DNA of 11,361 nt, from contig JAKLHH010000127.1 of assembly GCA_022710245.1 (NCBI GenBank), forward strand, positions 1 to 11,361, in the 5' to 3' direction. Both the position numbers and the translations under genes were made by a program. The notes beneath the pieces were generated by a model, which saw nothing but the letters and a program-made list of their open reading frames with translations, was not told where the DNA came from and searched no databases. Source of the stretch: Myxococcota bacterium (GTDB lineage Bacteria; Myxococcota; Polyangia; GCA-2747355; JAKLHH01). This document shows, piece by piece, positions 1 through 9,667 of the stretch (position 1 is its first letter; every line of letters starts with the position of its first letter).

Positions 1-2388
1 GCCACGGCCACCGCCGGCGCCGTCGACAAGGCGACGCTGACCGTGGTCTCCGACGATCCCGAGCACAAGAAGGTCGAGCTCCCGCTGACGCTGACCCCGA
101 CGGGCGGCGTCCTCGCGCTCACCCCGGCCACCGCCGACTTCGGCCTGGTGCCGGTGGGGAGCGAGATGAAGGAGCTGCCCCTCATCCTCACCAACATCGG
201 CAACCAGGCGGTCGGGGTGCTGATCGCCTCGCCGACCGACGCGCAGTTCAGCTTCGCGTGGGACGGCGGACCGTCGGCGGTGTCGGTGGAGCCCTCGGCC
301 TCGATGAGCGGCCTCGTCGCGCGCTTCAAGCCCACCGCCGCCAAGGCCTCCTCGGGGAGCTCGCTGATCTCCGTGCAGGGCGCCCTCTGCGCGGGCGGCG
401 TCGGCTCGGTGGCGTACAAGGGGCAGGGGAGCATCGGCGCGGTCGGGGTGCAGCCGGGGGCGCTCGACTTCGGCAAGGTCGCCTGCGGCGGCACGCCGAC
501 TCCGCAGAGCATCACCCTCTCGAACTCGGGGAACGCGAGCTTCACCTACACCATCACGCTCGCCGCGGCCGCGGCCTCCCCCTACCAGGTGAGCCCCGCG
601 GCCGGCACCGTGCCCGCCAAGGGGAGCGCCACCATCAAGGTGACCCCCGACGCCATCCCGGCGGTCTCGCTCGTCACGCCCGACCTCTACGGCGACACGC
701 TGATCATCACCACCAGCGTCGCGGGCGACGCCCCGCACACCGTCCCGCTGCACCTCACGGCGCAGGGGGCGCGGCTCGCCTTCAACCAGAACAACATCAG
801 CTTCGGCGACGTGCCGCTCACGACGACGAAGAAGGCCGGCCTCGAGCTGATCAACTCCGGGAACGCGAGCGCCACGGTCACCCTCGGGACGGGGGCGCCC
901 TTCAGCCTGACCCCGAAGACCGCGACCGCGGTGGCGGCGGGGGCGAAGCTCCCCGTCAGCGTCAGCTTCGCGCCGACGACGGCGGCGCCGGTGAGCGAGG
1001 TGATCACCGTCTCGGCCGCGGCGGGCGACCAGCTCTGCGCGCCGCTCCCCACCGGCCTGCCCCTCGCGGGGACCGGGACCAGCGGGAGCCTCGCCATCTC
1101 GGTGCAGACGCTGATCTTCGGCGACGTCGACTGCGGCAAGCAGGCCGCCCCGCAGGACGTGCTGATCCAGAACGTGGGGACCAGCGCCTTCAGCTGGACC
1201 GGCACGCTGACCAAGGGCGCGGCCTCGCCCTACGGCGCCACCCCGCTCTCGGGCACGCTGAACCCTGGCGACCTCGCCACGATCAAGGTGACGCCGAAGG
1301 CGATCCCGGCGAGCTCGCCGGTCACCGCCGGGCTCTTCGAGGACCTGCTCACCATCAAGACCACCATCACCGGCGACTCGCCGCACCCGATCCCGCTGGA
1401 GATGGGAGCGCGCGGCGTGATCCTCGCCTTCCAGCCGAAGACGCCGATCGCCTTCGGCAAGGTGCCGGCGGGGGAGAGCGCCGACGCGGAGCTCTCCGTG
1501 GTCAACAGCGGCAACCTCGCTGCCTCGGTCTCCTTCGCGATGAGCAACGGTCCCCTCTTCACGCTGAGCGAGGCGGGGCCCGCCACCCTCGAGGCCGAGG
1601 ACAGCTACGGCCTCACGGCGACCTTCGCGCCCACCTCCACCGCGACCTCCACCTCCACCATCACGCTCAGCGTCGGCGCGGGCACCGTGCTCTGCGCCCC
1701 TCTCCCCACGCTGGGCGCCTCGGGGACCGGCAGCAACGGCTCCGTCGGGATCTCGCCCACCAACCTCGACTGGGGCTCGGTGACCTGCGGCACCCAGGGC
1801 GGGCCGCGCACGGTCGTGCTCAGCAACGCGGGGACGCTGCGCTACAACTGGACCGCGGCGCTCGAGGGTGACTCCGCGGTGGCCTACGGGCTCTCGGCGG
1901 CGAGCGGCTACGTCGACCCGGGCGTGCCCGTGACGCTCACCGTGACCCCGCCCGCGATCCCGGCAGCGACGGAGACCACCGCGGGCCTCTACAACGACAC
2001 GCTCACCATCACCACCGACGTCTTCGGGGACACCCCTCACAGCGTGCCCCTGACCACGACGGCCTACGGCGCGATCATCAACACCTCGGTCGGCGACGTG
2101 CCCCTGGGCGACGTCCTCCTCGGCGCGACCGCCTACGGCTCGTTCACGGTCAGCAACACGGGCAACGCGCCGGCCACCATCTCGATCGGCGTGGGCAACG
2201 CCGTCTTCGGGGTCAGCCCGCAGAACCGCCTCACCGCGGCAGGGGACAGCTACCTCGCGAGCGTGAGCTTTCACCCCACCGCCGCGGTGGTCTACTCGAC
2301 GACCGCGACGCTCAGCGTGCCCCCCGGGACTCCGCTCTGCGAGCCGATGCCCACGGTGACCCTCGAGGGGAGCGGCGACGTCCCCTGA
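1..2388 (+). CDS. Choice-of-anchor-D / ASPM-SPD-2-Hydin-like repeat protein, 5'-truncated
   Basis: The frame is open from base 1, so the real start lies upstream; GTG at 43 is only the first possible start inside the window. The visible 795 residues are an alternation of two Ig-like beta modules. Type B modules begin near residues 46, 267, 484 and 701 (FG-x-VP or LGDV, then N-x-GN). Type A modules begin near 156, 372 and 590 (FG-x-V-x-CG or WGSVTCG). One A+B pair recurs every ~217 residues. Each A has a Cys after its FG-x-V motif, and each B ends in an LC-containing segment (LCAPLP, LCEPMP, LCAGG). Such modules belong to the choice-of-anchor-D/Hydin-like superfamily and are usually found in secreted or surface proteins. 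No C-terminal anchor is present: the protein ends soon after the last B module with TGA. The product is probably an extracellular or periplasmic structural or adhesive protein; its ligand is unknown. The permease gene starts 16 bases downstream. Confidence 0.8.
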   Translation, partial: ATATAGAVDKATLTVVSDDPEHKKVELPLTLTPTGGVLALTPATADFGLVPVGSEMKELPLILTNIGNQAVGVLIASPTDAQFSFAWDGGPSAVSVEPSASMSGLVARFKPTAAKASSGSSLISVQGALCAGGVGSVAYKGQGSIGAVGVQPGALDFGKVACGGTPTPQSITLSNSGNASFTYTITLAAAAASPYQVSPAAGTVPAKGSATIKVTPDAIPAVSLVTPDLYGDTLIITTSVAGDAPHTVPLHLTAQGARLAFNQNNISFGDVPLTTTKKAGLELINSGNASATVTLGTGAPFSLTPKTATAVAAGAKLPVSVSFAPTTAAPVSEVITVSAAAGDQLCAPLPTGLPLAGTGTSGSLAISVQTLIFGDVDCGKQAAPQDVLIQNVGTSAFSWTGTLTKGAASPYGATPLSGTLNPGDLATIKVTPKAIPASSPVTAGLFEDLLTIKTTITGDSPHPIPLEMGARGVILAFQPKTPIAFGKVPAGESADAELSVVNSGNLAASVSFAMSNGPLFTLSEAGPATLEAEDSYGLTATFAPTSTATSTSTITLSVGAGTVLCAPLPTLGASGTGSNGSVGISPTNLDWGSVTCGTQGGPRTVVLSNAGTLRYNWTAALEGDSAVAYGLSAASGYVDPGVPVTLTVTPPAIPAATETTAGLYNDTLTITTDVFGDTPHSVPLTTTAYGAIINTSVGDVPLGDVLLGATAYGSFTVSNTGNAPATISIGVGNAVFGVSPQNRLTAAGDSYLASVSFHPTAAVVYSTTATLSVPPGTPLCEPMPTVTLEGSGDVP

Positions 2389-2404: not shown

Positions 2405-3499
2405 ATGATCGAGCCGAGAGCGACCCCCGCCGGGGGCGACGCCCAGCCCTGTCGCGGCGCCGCCCAGGTGCGCCCCGGAGGGGGGCGGCAGTCGGGCGAA
2501 GCTGCCGCGACCCAAAGCGGCGCTCGCGCCGGCACCCGACCTGGAGACAACGTCGGGGTCGCGGCGCTCCTGCAGCTCGTCGGCTCGCTGCTCTTCGTCG
2601 GCCTCGCCGCGCTGGTCAAGCTGGCGGGCGACGAGGCGACGCCGATGCAGGCCGTGCTCTACCGCTCGGTCTTCTCCATGCTGCCGCTGCTCCTCGAGAT
2701 GGCCCGGCGGCGCATCTCGCCGATCGGCCGGCGCTGGCGGCTGCTCGTCCTGCGCGGGGTCGCGGGCTACCTCGCGCTCTTCGGCTACTTCTACGCGATC
2801 GCCCACATCCACCTGGCGAACACCCTCGCGCTGCAGCAGCTCGCGCCCATCTTCGTCGCCTTCTTCTCCGTCTGGCTCCTCGGCGAGCGGCCCCGGGCGC
2901 TCCACTACCTGCTGGCCGGCGTCTGCCTCGGCGGCGCCATGCTGGTCGTGCGGCCGGACCGCGGCCTGCTCTCGGTCCCCTCGCTGGTCGCGGTGGGATC
3001 GGCGCTCTTCTCGGCGCTCGCGTACGTCTCCGTGCGCGCGCTGACGCGGAGCGAGCCCACGCCGCGCATCGTCCTCTGGTTCTCCATCGTCGCCAGCGTG
3101 CTCGCGCTCCCCTTCGTGCTCCCCGGCTGGCGCTGGCCCGGGCCGCGCGCGAGCTTGCTCCTCGTCGGCGCCGGGCTCCTCGCCGCGCCGGCGCAGGCGC
3201 TGATGACAGCGGCCTACCGGCGCGCGCCGGCGCACGTCGCGGCGGTCTTCAGCTACGTCAGCGTGCCGCTCGCGTACCTCTCCGGCGTCGTGGTCTGGGG
3301 CGAGCGCCCCGACCACCTTGCCAACCTTGGCATCGGGCTGATCGTGACCGGCGGGGCTGCGCTGGTGGCCTCGCTGCGCGGCGGGCACGAGCGCGACAGA
3401 CACGAGCGCGGCGCCGAGGCGGACACTTCAGCGGCGGCGACGTCCGAGGGTGAACGCCATGGCCGCGAGGACGAGCAGGGCGAGGACGGCGCGCGGTGA
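2405..3499 (+). CDS. EamA/DMT-superfamily permease (10 predicted TM helices)
   Basis: 364 residues. About ten hydrophobic helices run from residue ~50 to ~325 in the two-fold arrangement of EamA transporters (drug/metabolite transporter superfamily). The first half ends near VWLLGERP (~146-153) and the second near VVWGERP (~296-302), the repeated helix-end GE-x-P signature of this family. The substrate cannot be told; relatives export amino acids, nucleotides or other small metabolites across the inner membrane. ATG at 2405 is chosen because AGGA lies a few bases upstream; GTG at 2468 is an alternative that would remove part of a ~48-residue hydrophilic Gly/Arg/Ala-rich N-terminus not typical of the family. 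The ~39-residue tail is also hydrophilic, and residues 342-364 are encoded by DNA that is antisense to the end of the convergent Cys-rich protein gene. The 16-base spacing suggests co-transcription with the beta-repeat gene upstream. Confidence 0.88.
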   Translation: MIEPRATPAGGDAQPCRGAAQVRPGGGRQSGEAAATQSGARAGTRPGDNVGVAALLQLVGSLLFVGLAALVKLAGDEATPMQAVLYRSVFSMLPLLLEMARRRISPIGRRWRLLVLRGVAGYLALFGYFYAIAHIHLANTLALQQLAPIFVAFFSVWLLGERPRALHYLLAGVCLGGAMLVVRPDRGLLSVPSLVAVGSALFSALAYVSVRALTRSEPTPRIVLWFSIVASVLALPFVLPGWRWPGPRASLLLVGAGLLAAPAQALMTAAYRRAPAHVAAVFSYVSVPLAYLSGVVVWGERPDHLANLGIGLIVTGGAALVASLRGGHERDRHERGAEADTSAAATSEGERHGREDEQGEDGAR

Positions 3500-4219
3500 G
3501 CCCGGCGCGCCGACGCGGCACGAGCAGTCGGGCGAGCCCTTCGTGTCTCCCGCGTCGCCAGCCCCCGCCTCGCGGGAGGTCAGGTCGGCGCTGGCCTCGA
3601 TCCAGCCGCCGGCCTCGGTCCACGGCTTCGGGCAGTCGCGGGCGTGCTTGCCGCTCGGGTCCACCTTCCCCTCGGTGCCGCAGTCGTAGTACTGGCCGTT
3701 CGGCAGCCAGCCGCAGGTCGGGTTGAGCCCGCAGCTCAGCGACTTCAGCTCTCCGCTGTCGCAGTAGCGGAGCACGTTGCCAGCGCAGCAGCCGACCCGC
3801 GTGATCTGGCCACAGCCACGCCCGGCGTCACCCACGACGCCCCCGTCGGAGGTCGGTAGCTTGACGCCGAGGAGCACGCACTCGCGGGGGTGGAGGCCGG
3901 CGGGGTCCTGCGCGCCCGCCGTGTTGCAGTCGTAGATCGCGGACGCGGTGGACCAGCCACAGCGCAGGGCGCTGCCGCAGCGCAGGGTCTTCAGCGCGCC
4001 GCCCTGGCACCACCACAGCGTCTCGCCGTCGCAGCAGCCCTCGATGGGGATCACGCAGCCAGCGTCGCCGCTCGCCTCGCGTGCGGCGTCGACCGAGAGC
4101 TCGGCCGCCCCGTCGCCGCCCCCGGCGGCGCGGCGCTGGCTACCGATGATGGGACCAGGCTCGACGCAGCCGACGGTGGTGAGCGCGCAGGCTGCCAGCG
4201 TGAGAAGCCTCCGGGTCAC
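3428..4219 (-). CDS. Lipoprotein-like protein with two 8-Cys modules and MYXO-CTERM-like tail
   Basis: 263 residues from GTG at 4219, whose GTG overlaps the TGA of the upstream paralogue as GTGA; GAGGAGGAG lies 3 bases upstream. The frame stays open far upstream, but that part is Arg/Ala-rich shadow of the neighbour. The N-terminus VTRRLLTLAACALTTVGC resembles a short lipoprotein signal with C18 as acylation site; the -3 Thr is imperfect for a lipobox. Two copies of a ~60-residue module follow, with cysteines at 55, 62, 63, 71, 81, 87, 98, 114 and at 136, 144, 145, 153, 163, 169, 180, 196. The C-terminus has C232-S-C234, a hydrophobic stretch (~243-258) and ends GRRRR, matching the MYXO-CTERM layout. 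In Myxococcota such tails are processed for surface display. The module's function is unknown; eight cysteines suggest disulfides outside the cytoplasm. The last 72 bases overlap the convergent permease gene. Confidence 0.8.
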   Translation of the reverse strand: MTRRLLTLAACALTTVGCVEPGPIIGSQRRAAGGGDGAAELSVDAAREASGDAGCVIPIEGCCDGETLWWCQGGALKTLRCGSALRCGWSTASAIYDCNTAGAQDPAGLHPRECVLLGVKLPTSDGGVVGDAGRGCGQITRVGCCAGNVLRYCDSGELKSLSCGLNPTCGWLPNGQYYDCGTEGKVDPSGKHARDCPKPWTEAGGWIEASADLTSREAGAGDAGDTKGSPDCSCRVGAPGSPRAVLALLVLAAMAFTLGRRRR

Positions 4220-5286
4220 TGTCTCCTCCTCGCTCGCCGCGCCCGGCGACGGAGCGCCCGGCGACGGAGCGCCAGCGCGAGCCCCAGCGCGACGAGCGGC
4301 AGCGCCGCTTGCAGGTCCTCGCCGTCCCCGGTGGCGAGCGCGCAGCTGCAGCCGCCGCCGCCGCCCACGGTCTTGCTGCCTCCGCGCTCGCCCTTGATCA
4401 CGTCGAGGCCCGACGGATCCAGCCCCAGCGCGTCGCGCCCGGTGGCGTCGCGGCCAGGGCCGTCGAGGCGCGCGTGATCGGCCGCGTGTCCCTCGCGGGG
4501 GGCGTCGGCGCGCGGCAGGTCCTTGCGCGGCCCGTCGGCGAGGCCGGCCTCCGCCGCGCCCGCCTCGCGGGGCGGCCCCGCGTCCACCAGCGGGAGCGCC
4601 CCGCAGCTCTTCGGGTGGACGCCGGCGGGATCGGCGAGCCCGGCCGTGCCGCAGCGATAGAGCGCGCTCGCGGCGTCCCAGCCACACGCGGGCGACGCGG
4701 CGCAGTCCAGCTGGAGCAGCTGTCCGCCGACGCAGAAGAAGAGGTGCGCGCCCTGGCAGCAGCCCGTGTAGGTCACGCTGCCGCAGACCGAGGCGTCGCT
4801 GGCCGCCAGGTCGGCCGTGGAAGCGTCCTTCGCCGGCGAGGCGTCCTTCGCCGTGGAAGCGTCCTTCGCCGGTGCGTCGCCCTTCGCCGGTGCGTCGCCC
4901 TTCGCGTCCTTGCCCTTGGGCCCGTCGAGAGCGCCGTCGACACCTGGGCAGCTCCTCGGGAGGCTGCCGCTCGGATCCGCCCCCGCCGAGGAGCCGCAGG
5001 CATAGAGGCCGAAGAGCTGATCCCAGCCGCAGCTCGCGGGGCTGCAGGCCTGGTTGACGAGCTTCCCCGCGGCGCAGTAGCGGAGCACGCTCCCCTGACA
5101 GCAGCCCTGGTAGGGGATCGCCCCGCAGCTCCCGCCGTCGCTCGCCGACCCCGCGTCCTGACCCAGCGCTCCCCGGCGCACTCCCTGGCTCGCCGGCTCG
5201 CCGCGGCAGGCCGCGACGAGGAGCACGAGCCCGGCGAGGGCCAGCGAGGCCGCGCCGGTGAGCCTGCTCGAGGAGCGTTCCATCAT
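4216..5286 (-). CDS. Lipoprotein with two 8-Cys modules, KDAS/KGDA linker and MYXO-CTERM-like tail
   Basis: 356 residues; ATG at 5286 (a second ATG follows directly). The signal peptide ends in LVAAC (C27), a convincing lipobox. Module 1 has cysteines at 54, 62, 63, 71, 81, 86, 97, 113; module 2 at 168, 176, 177, 185, 195, 201, 212, 228. Between them is a hydrophilic linker containing five six-residue repeats (129-158). After module 2 comes a ~75-residue Asp/Gly/Arg/Ala-rich region, then five Gly and C313-S-C315, a hydrophobic helix (~327-340) and a long Arg-rich end. This is the MYXO-CTERM pattern, although the basic tail is longer than usual. It is paralogous to the next gene downstream, with which it shares a 4-base overlap, so the two are probably made together. 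An 82-base gap separates it from the upstream hypothetical gene. No enzymatic motif was seen; a surface structural or binding role is inference. Confidence 0.85.
   Translation of the reverse strand: MMERSSSRLTGAASLALAGLVLLVAACRGEPASQGVRRGALGQDAGSASDGGSCGAIPYQGCCQGSVLRYCAAGKLVNQACSPASCGWDQLFGLYACGSSAGADPSGSLPRSCPGVDGALDGPKGKDAKGDAPAKGDAPAKDASTAKDASPAKDASTADLAASDASVCGSVTYTGCCQGAHLFFCVGGQLLQLDCAASPACGWDAASALYRCGTAGLADPAGVHPKSCGALPLVDAGPPREAGAAEAGLADGPRKDLPRADAPREGHAADHARLDGPGRDATGRDALGLDPSGLDVIKGERGGSKTVGGGGGCSCALATGDGEDLQAALPLVALGLALALRRRALRRRARRARRRQ
4223..4231 (-). promoter_or_regulatory. Ribosome-binding site deciding the GTG start at 4219
   Basis: GAGGAGGAG on the minus strand ends 3 bases before the GTG, and its first hexamer is 6 bases away, good Shine-Dalgarno spacing. 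It is encoded inside the last Arg codons of the upstream paralogue, so translation of the second gene is probably coupled to the first. It supports a start here rather than at the far-upstream starts in the same open frame. Confidence 0.7.
4813..4902 (-). repeat. Five 18-bp in-frame tandem repeats (six-residue linker repeats)
   Basis: Five exact-length 18-bp units, read on the minus strand, encode KGDAPA, KGDAPA, KDASTA, KDASPA, KDASTA (residues 129-158 of the 356-residue lipoprotein). The two KGDAPA units are nearly identical in DNA, and the first and third KDAS units are near-identical with a diverged one between. The tract forms a charged, probably disordered spacer between the two 8-Cys modules. 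Unit number is likely to vary between strains, since gain or loss keeps the frame. Confidence 0.85.
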
Positions 5287-8393: not shown

Positions 8394-9419
8394 CTAGACG
8401 AGGTAGAAGAACCGCTCGAGCTGCACCGCGATCTCGGGGAGCCTGGTCGCGTAGACGCTCACCCGCCGCAGCTCGTACGGGTTGATCGCCGAGGTGTTGG
8501 CCCCGAAGATCATCGTGCAGGCCAGGTGGAAGCCGGCGCGCCGCACCTCCTGCATCACCTCGAGGTTGTAGTCGGCGGGGCCGCCGTTGGGGTAGGCGAA
8601 GAGGCTCACGGGGTGCCCGAGCTGACCCTCGAGCTCCTCCTTGCAGCCGCCGAGCTCGCGGCGGAGCTGGGCGTTCGGCTCGCGGGAGAGGATCGGGTGG
8701 TTCACCGTGTGGCCGCCGGCCATGAACCCGCTCGCCTCCATCTCCCGGAGCTGGTTCCAGGTGAGCATCTCGCGGCGCAGCCCGTCGAAGCTCTCGACGC
8801 GCATCACCTCGGCGAGCTCGGCGAGGAACTCCTCGCGCTCCACCGTGTCCTGCTCCTTCAGCTCCTGCTTGAGCCGGCCGAGGAGCTGCAGGCGCACCTG
8901 CTTCGACGCCAGCGCCAGCCGCTCGCCGCGCACCACCACCGGCTCGGCCGGCGCCTGGCCGTGCTCGAGGATCCAGCCGAGGCGGGAGGTCCAGAGGAGG
9001 TTCTGGCCCTCCATGCAGCCCGTCGTGATGAAGACCGTCGCCGGGAGCTTGTGACGGCGCAGGATCGGGAGCGCGAGCTCGTAGTTGTCCGCGTAGCCGT
9101 CGTCGAACGTGATGGCGACCGCCCCGGAGGGCTGAGGCCGCGAGAGCCGCTGGGTCTCGAGCTCGGCGAGCGGGAGCACGCGGTAGCTCTCCGCCAGGTA
9201 GCCGCAGAGCCAGTCGAAGAGCGCCAGCGGCGTGCCGGGCTGGAACGGGTTGGGCCGCTCGGTGATCCGGTGGAAGACCAGGATCAGCACGCCACGCTCG
9301 AGCTGCGGGAGCAGGCCGAGGTGCTTGTTCACCCGATCGAGGGCGATCGCACCCCGGCGCCAGACCTTGAGCAACCGCGAGCGATACGCGAACGACGCTA
9401 TGGCTCGCTTCAGGCTCAC
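8394..9419 (-). CDS. Polysaccharide deacetylase family protein (carbohydrate esterase 4 / NodB fold)
   Basis: 341 residues from GTG at 9419, overlapping the acyl carrier protein stop as GTGA. The CE4 motifs are present: TFDDGY (104-109; D106 as catalytic base and D107 as metal ligand by family rule), the metal-binding H-x-x-x-H at H237/H241 (GGHTVNHP), and FAYPNG (274-279). About 130 residues separate the first two motifs, far more than in classical NodB (~50), so a helical insertion (~150-220) is present, as in many exopolysaccharide-cluster deacetylases. CE4 enzymes remove N- or O-acetyl groups from sugars in a metal-dependent way. There is no clear signal peptide; residues 1-40 are basic and amphipathic, so it may act in the cytoplasm or be membrane-associated. 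Position between the ACP and FHA genes suggests a role in modifying an exopolysaccharide or its lipid-linked precursor; the substrate is not determined. Confidence 0.92.
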   Translation of the reverse strand: MSLKRAIASFAYRSRLLKVWRRGAIALDRVNKHLGLLPQLERGVLILVFHRITERPNPFQPGTPLALFDWLCGYLAESYRVLPLAELETQRLSRPQPSGAVAITFDDGYADNYELALPILRRHKLPATVFITTGCMEGQNLLWTSRLGWILEHGQAPAEPVVVRGERLALASKQVRLQLLGRLKQELKEQDTVEREEFLAELAEVMRVESFDGLRREMLTWNQLREMEASGFMAGGHTVNHPILSREPNAQLRRELGGCKEELEGQLGHPVSLFAYPNGGPADYNLEVMQEVRRAGFHLACTMIFGANTSAINPYELRRVSVYATRLPEIAVQLERFFYLV

Positions 9420-9667
9420 GCCGCGGCTTGCTTCCGCTCGAGGAAGGAGGTCAGCTTCGCGAGCGAGTCGAAGTTCTCCGGCACGAGCTCGGCGTCGCCG
9501 ACGCTGATGCTGAAGGTCTCCTCGATGAACCCGACCAGCTCCAGCACCCCGGTGGAGTCGATCACGCCGTTGTCGATCAGCGACATCTCCCGCGTGAGCT
9601 TGGCCTCGTCGTCCGTGTACATGAAGTTCTGCAGGATGAACTTCCGGAGCTGCGCTTCAATCTTCAT
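9416..9667 (-). CDS. Acyl carrier protein
   Basis: 83 residues, normal ACP length. The phosphopantetheine attachment motif is D37-S38-T39-G40 in the context GVIDSTGVLELV, followed by helix II and a conserved-looking LVPENFDSLAKLTSFL segment. ATG at 9667 is preceded by GAGG at 7 bases. It resembles specialised ACPs of exopolysaccharide/exosortase-type and D-alanyl-ligase-like clusters rather than the fatty-acid-synthesis AcpP, which typically has DSLDTVEL. It would carry an acyl or aminoacyl group for transfer by a partner ligase or acyltransferase, but no such partner is in the window. Its TGA overlaps the deacetylase GTG by 4 bases, so the two are translationally coupled. A candidate promoter lies ~80-110 bases upstream, and it is probably the first gene of a transcript running through the deacetylase and FHA genes. 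Confidence 0.93.
   Translation of the reverse strand: MKIEAQLRKFILQNFMYTDDEAKLTREMSLIDNGVIDSTGVLELVGFIEETFSISVGDAELVPENFDSLAKLTSFLERKQAAA

Follow-up and report, generated by a model that had tools for sequence, protein, structure and literature searches.

An unnamed eight-cysteine module, widespread in a phylum that is probably Myxococcota, on predicted surface proteins and secreted enzymes

Peritrophin-A/CBM14 domains (PF01607) and MYXO-CTERM surface proteins are the described systems closest to the subject of this report, a module of about 60 residues with eight cysteines that occurs four times in two adjacent genes of a Myxococcota bacterium (contig JAKLHH010000127.1, assembly GCA_022710245.1; the window is the whole stretch analyzed, 11,361 nucleotides). 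Myxococcota are a phylum of predation and social life, and peritrophin-A/CBM14 is the chitin-binding type 2 domain, although chitin binding is not universal in the fold. The peritrophin-A/CBM14 fold is described as an antiparallel arrangement of three strands with a hairpin of two strands after it (PMC4844120), and the peritrophin-A domains of EHEP as carrying six cysteines spaced CX15CX5CX9CX12CX5-9C (PMC10619976). An account of MYXO-CTERM (TIGR03901) states that such surface proteins are sorted by myxosortase and that the motif is universal in Myxococcota (PMC11980579).

Gene 1 of the window (4216..5286, minus strand, ATG start, 356 amino acids (aa)) encodes module 1 at 4948..5127 (60 aa) and module 2 at 4603..4785 (61 aa), with linkers rich in Ala, Asp, Lys, and Pro, and gene 2 (3428..4219, minus strand, GTG start, 263 aa) encodes module 1 at 3878..4057 (60 aa) and module 2 at 3632..3814 (61 aa). 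The two genes overlap at a GTGA, comprising the TGA stop of gene 1 (4216-4218) and the GTG start of gene 2 (4217-4219). A six-frame scan of the window with the pattern C-x(6,7)-CC-x7-C-x9-C-x(4,5)-C-G-W-x8-C-x15-C returned exactly four matches, all on the minus strand and each with eight cysteines, and a looser cysteine pattern returned these four copies and nothing more. When the residues of the two proteins were shuffled (2000 times per protein), the strict pattern appeared in 0/4000 shuffles and the loose pattern twice, and the scan and shuffles together bear out the four strict copies that the initial annotation had described in two coupled genes. The near-fixed spacing it had reported is kept in 69 modules from 32 proteins including both window proteins, a count for which wide ranges were allowed and all eight cysteines required; the commonest values are x7 (66/69), CC, x7 (68/69), x9 (65/69), x5 (58/69), x9 or x10 (67/69), and x15 (64/69). 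Eight cysteines give seven spacings and not the eight that had been stated, and of the "Y or YD" said to precede Cys7 the tyrosine is present, and the position between it and Cys7 holds D, A, or R (Y-x-C).

Searches of Pfam, NCBIfam, and PDB sequences placed no named domain over the four copies. Neither window protein had a Pfam match over the cut-off, and nor did any of 32 modules scanned singly (E up to 10), which gave weak matches to DUF6237 in four cases and to two other families in one module each; PDB sequence profiles gave no significant match, in agreement with the earlier failure to recognize a named domain. The best near-match was DUF6237 (PF19750), at 20.6 bits versus a cut-off of 25. 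This candidate was rejected, as it stayed below the cut-off and, among eight module genomes, none exceeded it and five had weak matches; weak matches were also found in 7 of 14 control genomes, none over the cut-off. Among the open-licence PubMed Central papers listed in searches, none describes the module, judged by titles and abstract openings.

Using the gene 2 protein as query, 29 relatives besides itself were recovered (E 1.9e-51 to 2.6e-11), and the gene 1 protein recovered one. Within the genomes searched, the proteins nearest to gene 2 fell in one order of four genomes, three of which had matches (best E 2.6e-60). In a sample of 282 genomes of one phylum, 102 matched a profile of the module (E up to 1e-3), a survey that covered this single phylum and scored at most 22 candidates per genome. 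Two metagenome-assembled genomes, one of them from this phylum, contained 29 and 36 module matches (E up to 0.01). No phage or plasmid record matched the module. MYXO-CTERM scored over the cut-off in 51 of 57 genomes of the phylum that carries the module and in 0 of 14 control genomes, so this phylum is probably Myxococcota. Taken together, the module is real, widespread, unnamed, and predicted to be extracellular. In the relatives P0030-P0032 it sits among other cysteine-rich repeats. A second cysteine-rich repeat, approximately C-x-P-x-C-x-G-K-x-C-G-x-D-G-C-G-G-x-C-G-x-C, is often found beside the module (loci L095, L097, L098, and L100).

The surface-sorting features of the window proteins resemble those of MYXO-CTERM proteins. 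The C terminus of gene 2 (residues 232-263; 3431..3526, minus strand) matches TIGR03901 at 24.0 bits, over the cut-off of 20, and is the only one of the two that can be classed as MYXO-CTERM, the same scan of gene 1 being without a match. By eye, gene 1 ends in GGCSC, then a hydrophobic segment, then a tail rich in Arg, a MYXO-CTERM-like layout. At the N terminus, both proteins have a hydrophobic segment and a lipobox-like cysteine (VAAC, Cys27, in gene 1). Using our own lenient patterns, the lipobox-like cysteine was found in 25 of 29 family proteins and the C-terminal layout in 28 of 29 (genes 1 and 2 plus P0003-P0029, with P0030-P0032 not counted). From 188 loci, 117 non-redundant module open reading frames (ORFs, taken from stop to stop) were obtained, of which 108 were scanned in two sets of 47 and 61; the other nine comprise L128 (762 aa), two ORFs with lengths of 1329 and 1630 aa, and six that exceed 2000 aa. 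MYXO-CTERM matches were present in 17 of these 108 other ORFs (7/47 and 10/61; E up to 0.01). MYXO-CTERM is an anchor and not a module, and here, unlike in the described surface proteins, it is joined to an N-terminal lipobox-like cysteine. From these features we predict that the window proteins are displayed at the cell surface. A lipobox-like N-terminal cysteine and a MYXO-CTERM-like C terminus in one protein would imply lipid anchors at both ends.

A structural model of a single module (gene 2 module 2 with short flanks, 3620-3826) was predicted with a mean predicted local distance difference test (pLDDT) score of 90.9 and a predicted template modelling score of 0.79. Its strands (residues 13-15, 18-23, 26-31, 38-41, and 46-49) follow the three-then-two arrangement of peritrophin-A/CBM14, an agreement in strand number and order only, and structural comparison suggested a weak likeness to this family at a low Z. 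The C-x2-G-x6-C hairpin of the module has the x9 interval found between Cys3 and Cys4 of peritrophin-A, and the module shares with peritrophin-A/CBM14 both tandem use, as in EHEP, and use as an appendage on a secreted hydrolase, as in CHIT1. It differs in having eight cysteines rather than six, in its CC pair, and in the length of its C-terminal loop, which is long, and its intervals (x7, CC, x7, x9, x5, x9/10, x15) have only x9 in common with the six-cysteine spacing. PF01607 was absent among matches at E up to 10 for the window proteins and the 32 modules, exceeded its cut-off in 0 of 16 module-rich genomes, and gave no sequence-profile match when compared with the module. As both a Pfam match and the six-cysteine spacing are lacking, we did not file the module under peritrophin-A/CBM14; the kinship of fold that we infer is structural. 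Hevein/CBM18 (PF00187), which is likewise small and cysteine-rich with CC and CG motifs, was rejected at an hhalign probability of 0.1% over 10 columns (against a profile of eight sequences). In Foldseek, the fungal antifungal protein PAFB ranked first for the single module (E 0.25, probability 0.63, TM 0.36/0.42 over 51 columns; not significant) and second for the full protein (E 0.44). These ranks could point to a secreted antimicrobial or inhibitor fold aimed at prey, but we consider this very unlikely, given that the match is not significant and that the module occurs in one chain with enzymes and sorting signals, whereas PAFB is a small free secreted protein.

To the question of which cysteines pair, natural variation offers one answer. 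The alignments sampled 27/32 proteins (A1), 25/27 second modules (A2), 32/69 modules (A3), and 123/125 listed module stretches plus the four window modules (A6). Of 357 distinct modules, 302 were classed, 51 with Cys1 or Cys7 unaligned being omitted and 4 dropped as repeated cores. Cys2 is present in 208 and missing from 94, a six-cysteine share that is not a natural frequency, since some genomes were chosen for weaker matches and the profile used for searching derived from modules with eight cysteines. All 208 modules with Cys2 have a cysteine separated from Cys7 by 4 to 22 residues, whereas 73 of the 94 without Cys2 have none there; in 20 of the remaining 21 the cysteine belongs, by eye, to the next repeat or module, and one (L184 residues 389-440) is ambiguous. 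Counted by alignment column only, 196 modules have both Cys2 and Cys8, 97 have neither, and 13 have Cys2 with Cys8 unaligned, a downstream cysteine being visible by eye in all 13. Two modules in long proteins (L102 residues 1736-1795 and L103 residues 1620-1679) keep the tail with Cys2 and Cys8 both replaced, and ten ORFs carry modules with Cys2 as well as modules without it. On a tree from which the Cys2 column was excluded, the presence or absence of Cys2 changed at least 19 times, versus 74-85 times for 30 shuffled label sets, although this tree rests on 44 columns and its well-supported branches hold only one independent pair. As Cys2 and Cys8 tend to be present or absent as a pair, they likely form a disulfide, judging from sequence covariation, and Cys2-Cys8 is our proposed counterpart of 2-6 among the peritrophin-A/CBM14 disulfides (1-3, 2-6, and 4-5). 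The other cysteines hardly vary (Cys3 357/357, Cys4 356/357, Cys5 356/357), and co-loss is therefore uninformative for the remaining pairs, which we propose may be Cys1-Cys4, Cys3-Cys6, and Cys5-Cys7. The suggestion in the initial annotation of four disulfides in a compact extracellular fold accordingly gains support from the confident model, the sorting features, and the co-loss as far as Cys2-Cys8 is concerned, with the other three pairs conjectural. A metal-binding cluster in place of disulfides would suit eight nearly invariant cysteines that include a CC pair; it is the least probable alternative we weighed, as secretion and sorting features, the loss of one specific pair, which is expected of a disulfide, and the mean pLDDT reached without a metal all speak against it. 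The shorter form without Cys2 and Cys8 occurs in tandem arrays in L128 (1-2286, plus strand), L034 (1-1737, minus strand), and L125 (601-1884, minus strand).

The 108 scanned ORFs revealed a broad range of domain partners (E up to 1e-5), including Trypsin in 20, PAD_porph, of the arginine deiminase family, in 18, SGL in 5, CAP in 3, PPC in 3, Esterase in 2, and clostripain and an M23 peptidase in 1 each, plus a few others. When nine arginine deiminase proteins were scanned singly, the modules found lay after the enzyme domain, and a search with the module of one such protein retrieved 17 proteins, 11 with PF04371, although the origin of the query may favour proteins of this kind. The module ORFs often encode PAD_porph proteins that carry their modules at the C terminus (L035, L036, L037, L040, L047, L052, and L053). 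In the literature searched, nothing paired such deiminases with Myxococcus or Myxococcota, bar one preprint on ribosomally synthesized and post-translationally modified peptides that contained both terms once.

We propose that genes 1 and 2 encode surface proteins that would show two tandem modules on flexible Asp/Ala-rich linkers, and that on secreted arginine deiminases, trypsins, esterases, and other hydrolases the module would hold the enzyme on a polymer or surface. On balance we lean towards both window proteins combining a lipobox-like N-terminal cysteine and a MYXO-CTERM-like C terminus with two disulfide-locked, CBM14-like binding modules, the module serving as the phylum's general adhesion or targeting domain. 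Binding is the function we infer, and a glycan is our guess at the ligand. Tandem runs, such as 12 matches within one 762-aa ORF, the Asp/Ala/Pro-rich linkers, and the mixing with other cysteine-rich repeats could instead reflect a passive spacer or stalk, in which the module would be a rigid, protease-resistant, ligand-free disulfide bead between enzyme and anchor. We regard this as unlikely, if still worth serious attention, as many enzymes bear single copies, the broad partner range is typical of binding modules, and residues other than cysteine are conserved, among them aromatics at positions 17 (312/357), 36 (312/349), and 43 (322/337; His included), although these may be core residues. 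A reading bolder than the adhesion or targeting role that we favour, and improbable in our estimate, sees true kinship between this bacterial module and the peritrophin-A/CBM14 domain of animals and fungi. The module would then carry a fourth disulfide and would have diversified within Myxococcota as the general domain that targets surface hydrolases, arginine deiminases among them, and it might belong to the lineage that gave rise to the eukaryotic domain.

Elsewhere in the window, an ORF for an EamA transporter (2405-3499, plus strand) is convergent with gene 2, their 3' ends overlapping by 72 bases, and positions 1-2388 (plus strand) encode repeated ASH/HYDIN-type Ig-like domains in a protein cut by the window start. 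A small gene at 9416-9667, 4 kb from the module genes, was labelled acyl-carrier-like by us and has no Pfam match; an acyl-carrier-like gene with 56% identity to it (L111, 9470-9718) directly adjoins a module gene in genome G380.

This marks an abundant extracellular domain, with up to 36 matches in one genome, that lacks a family model and occurs on secreted deiminases and proteases. Its natural loss of one cysteine pair provides an example of a disulfide read from sequence, and a peritrophin-like fold, if true, would raise the question of a common origin for the animal and bacterial versions. A family name would aid the annotation of many surface proteins now called hypothetical, and the module supplies a testable targeting module.
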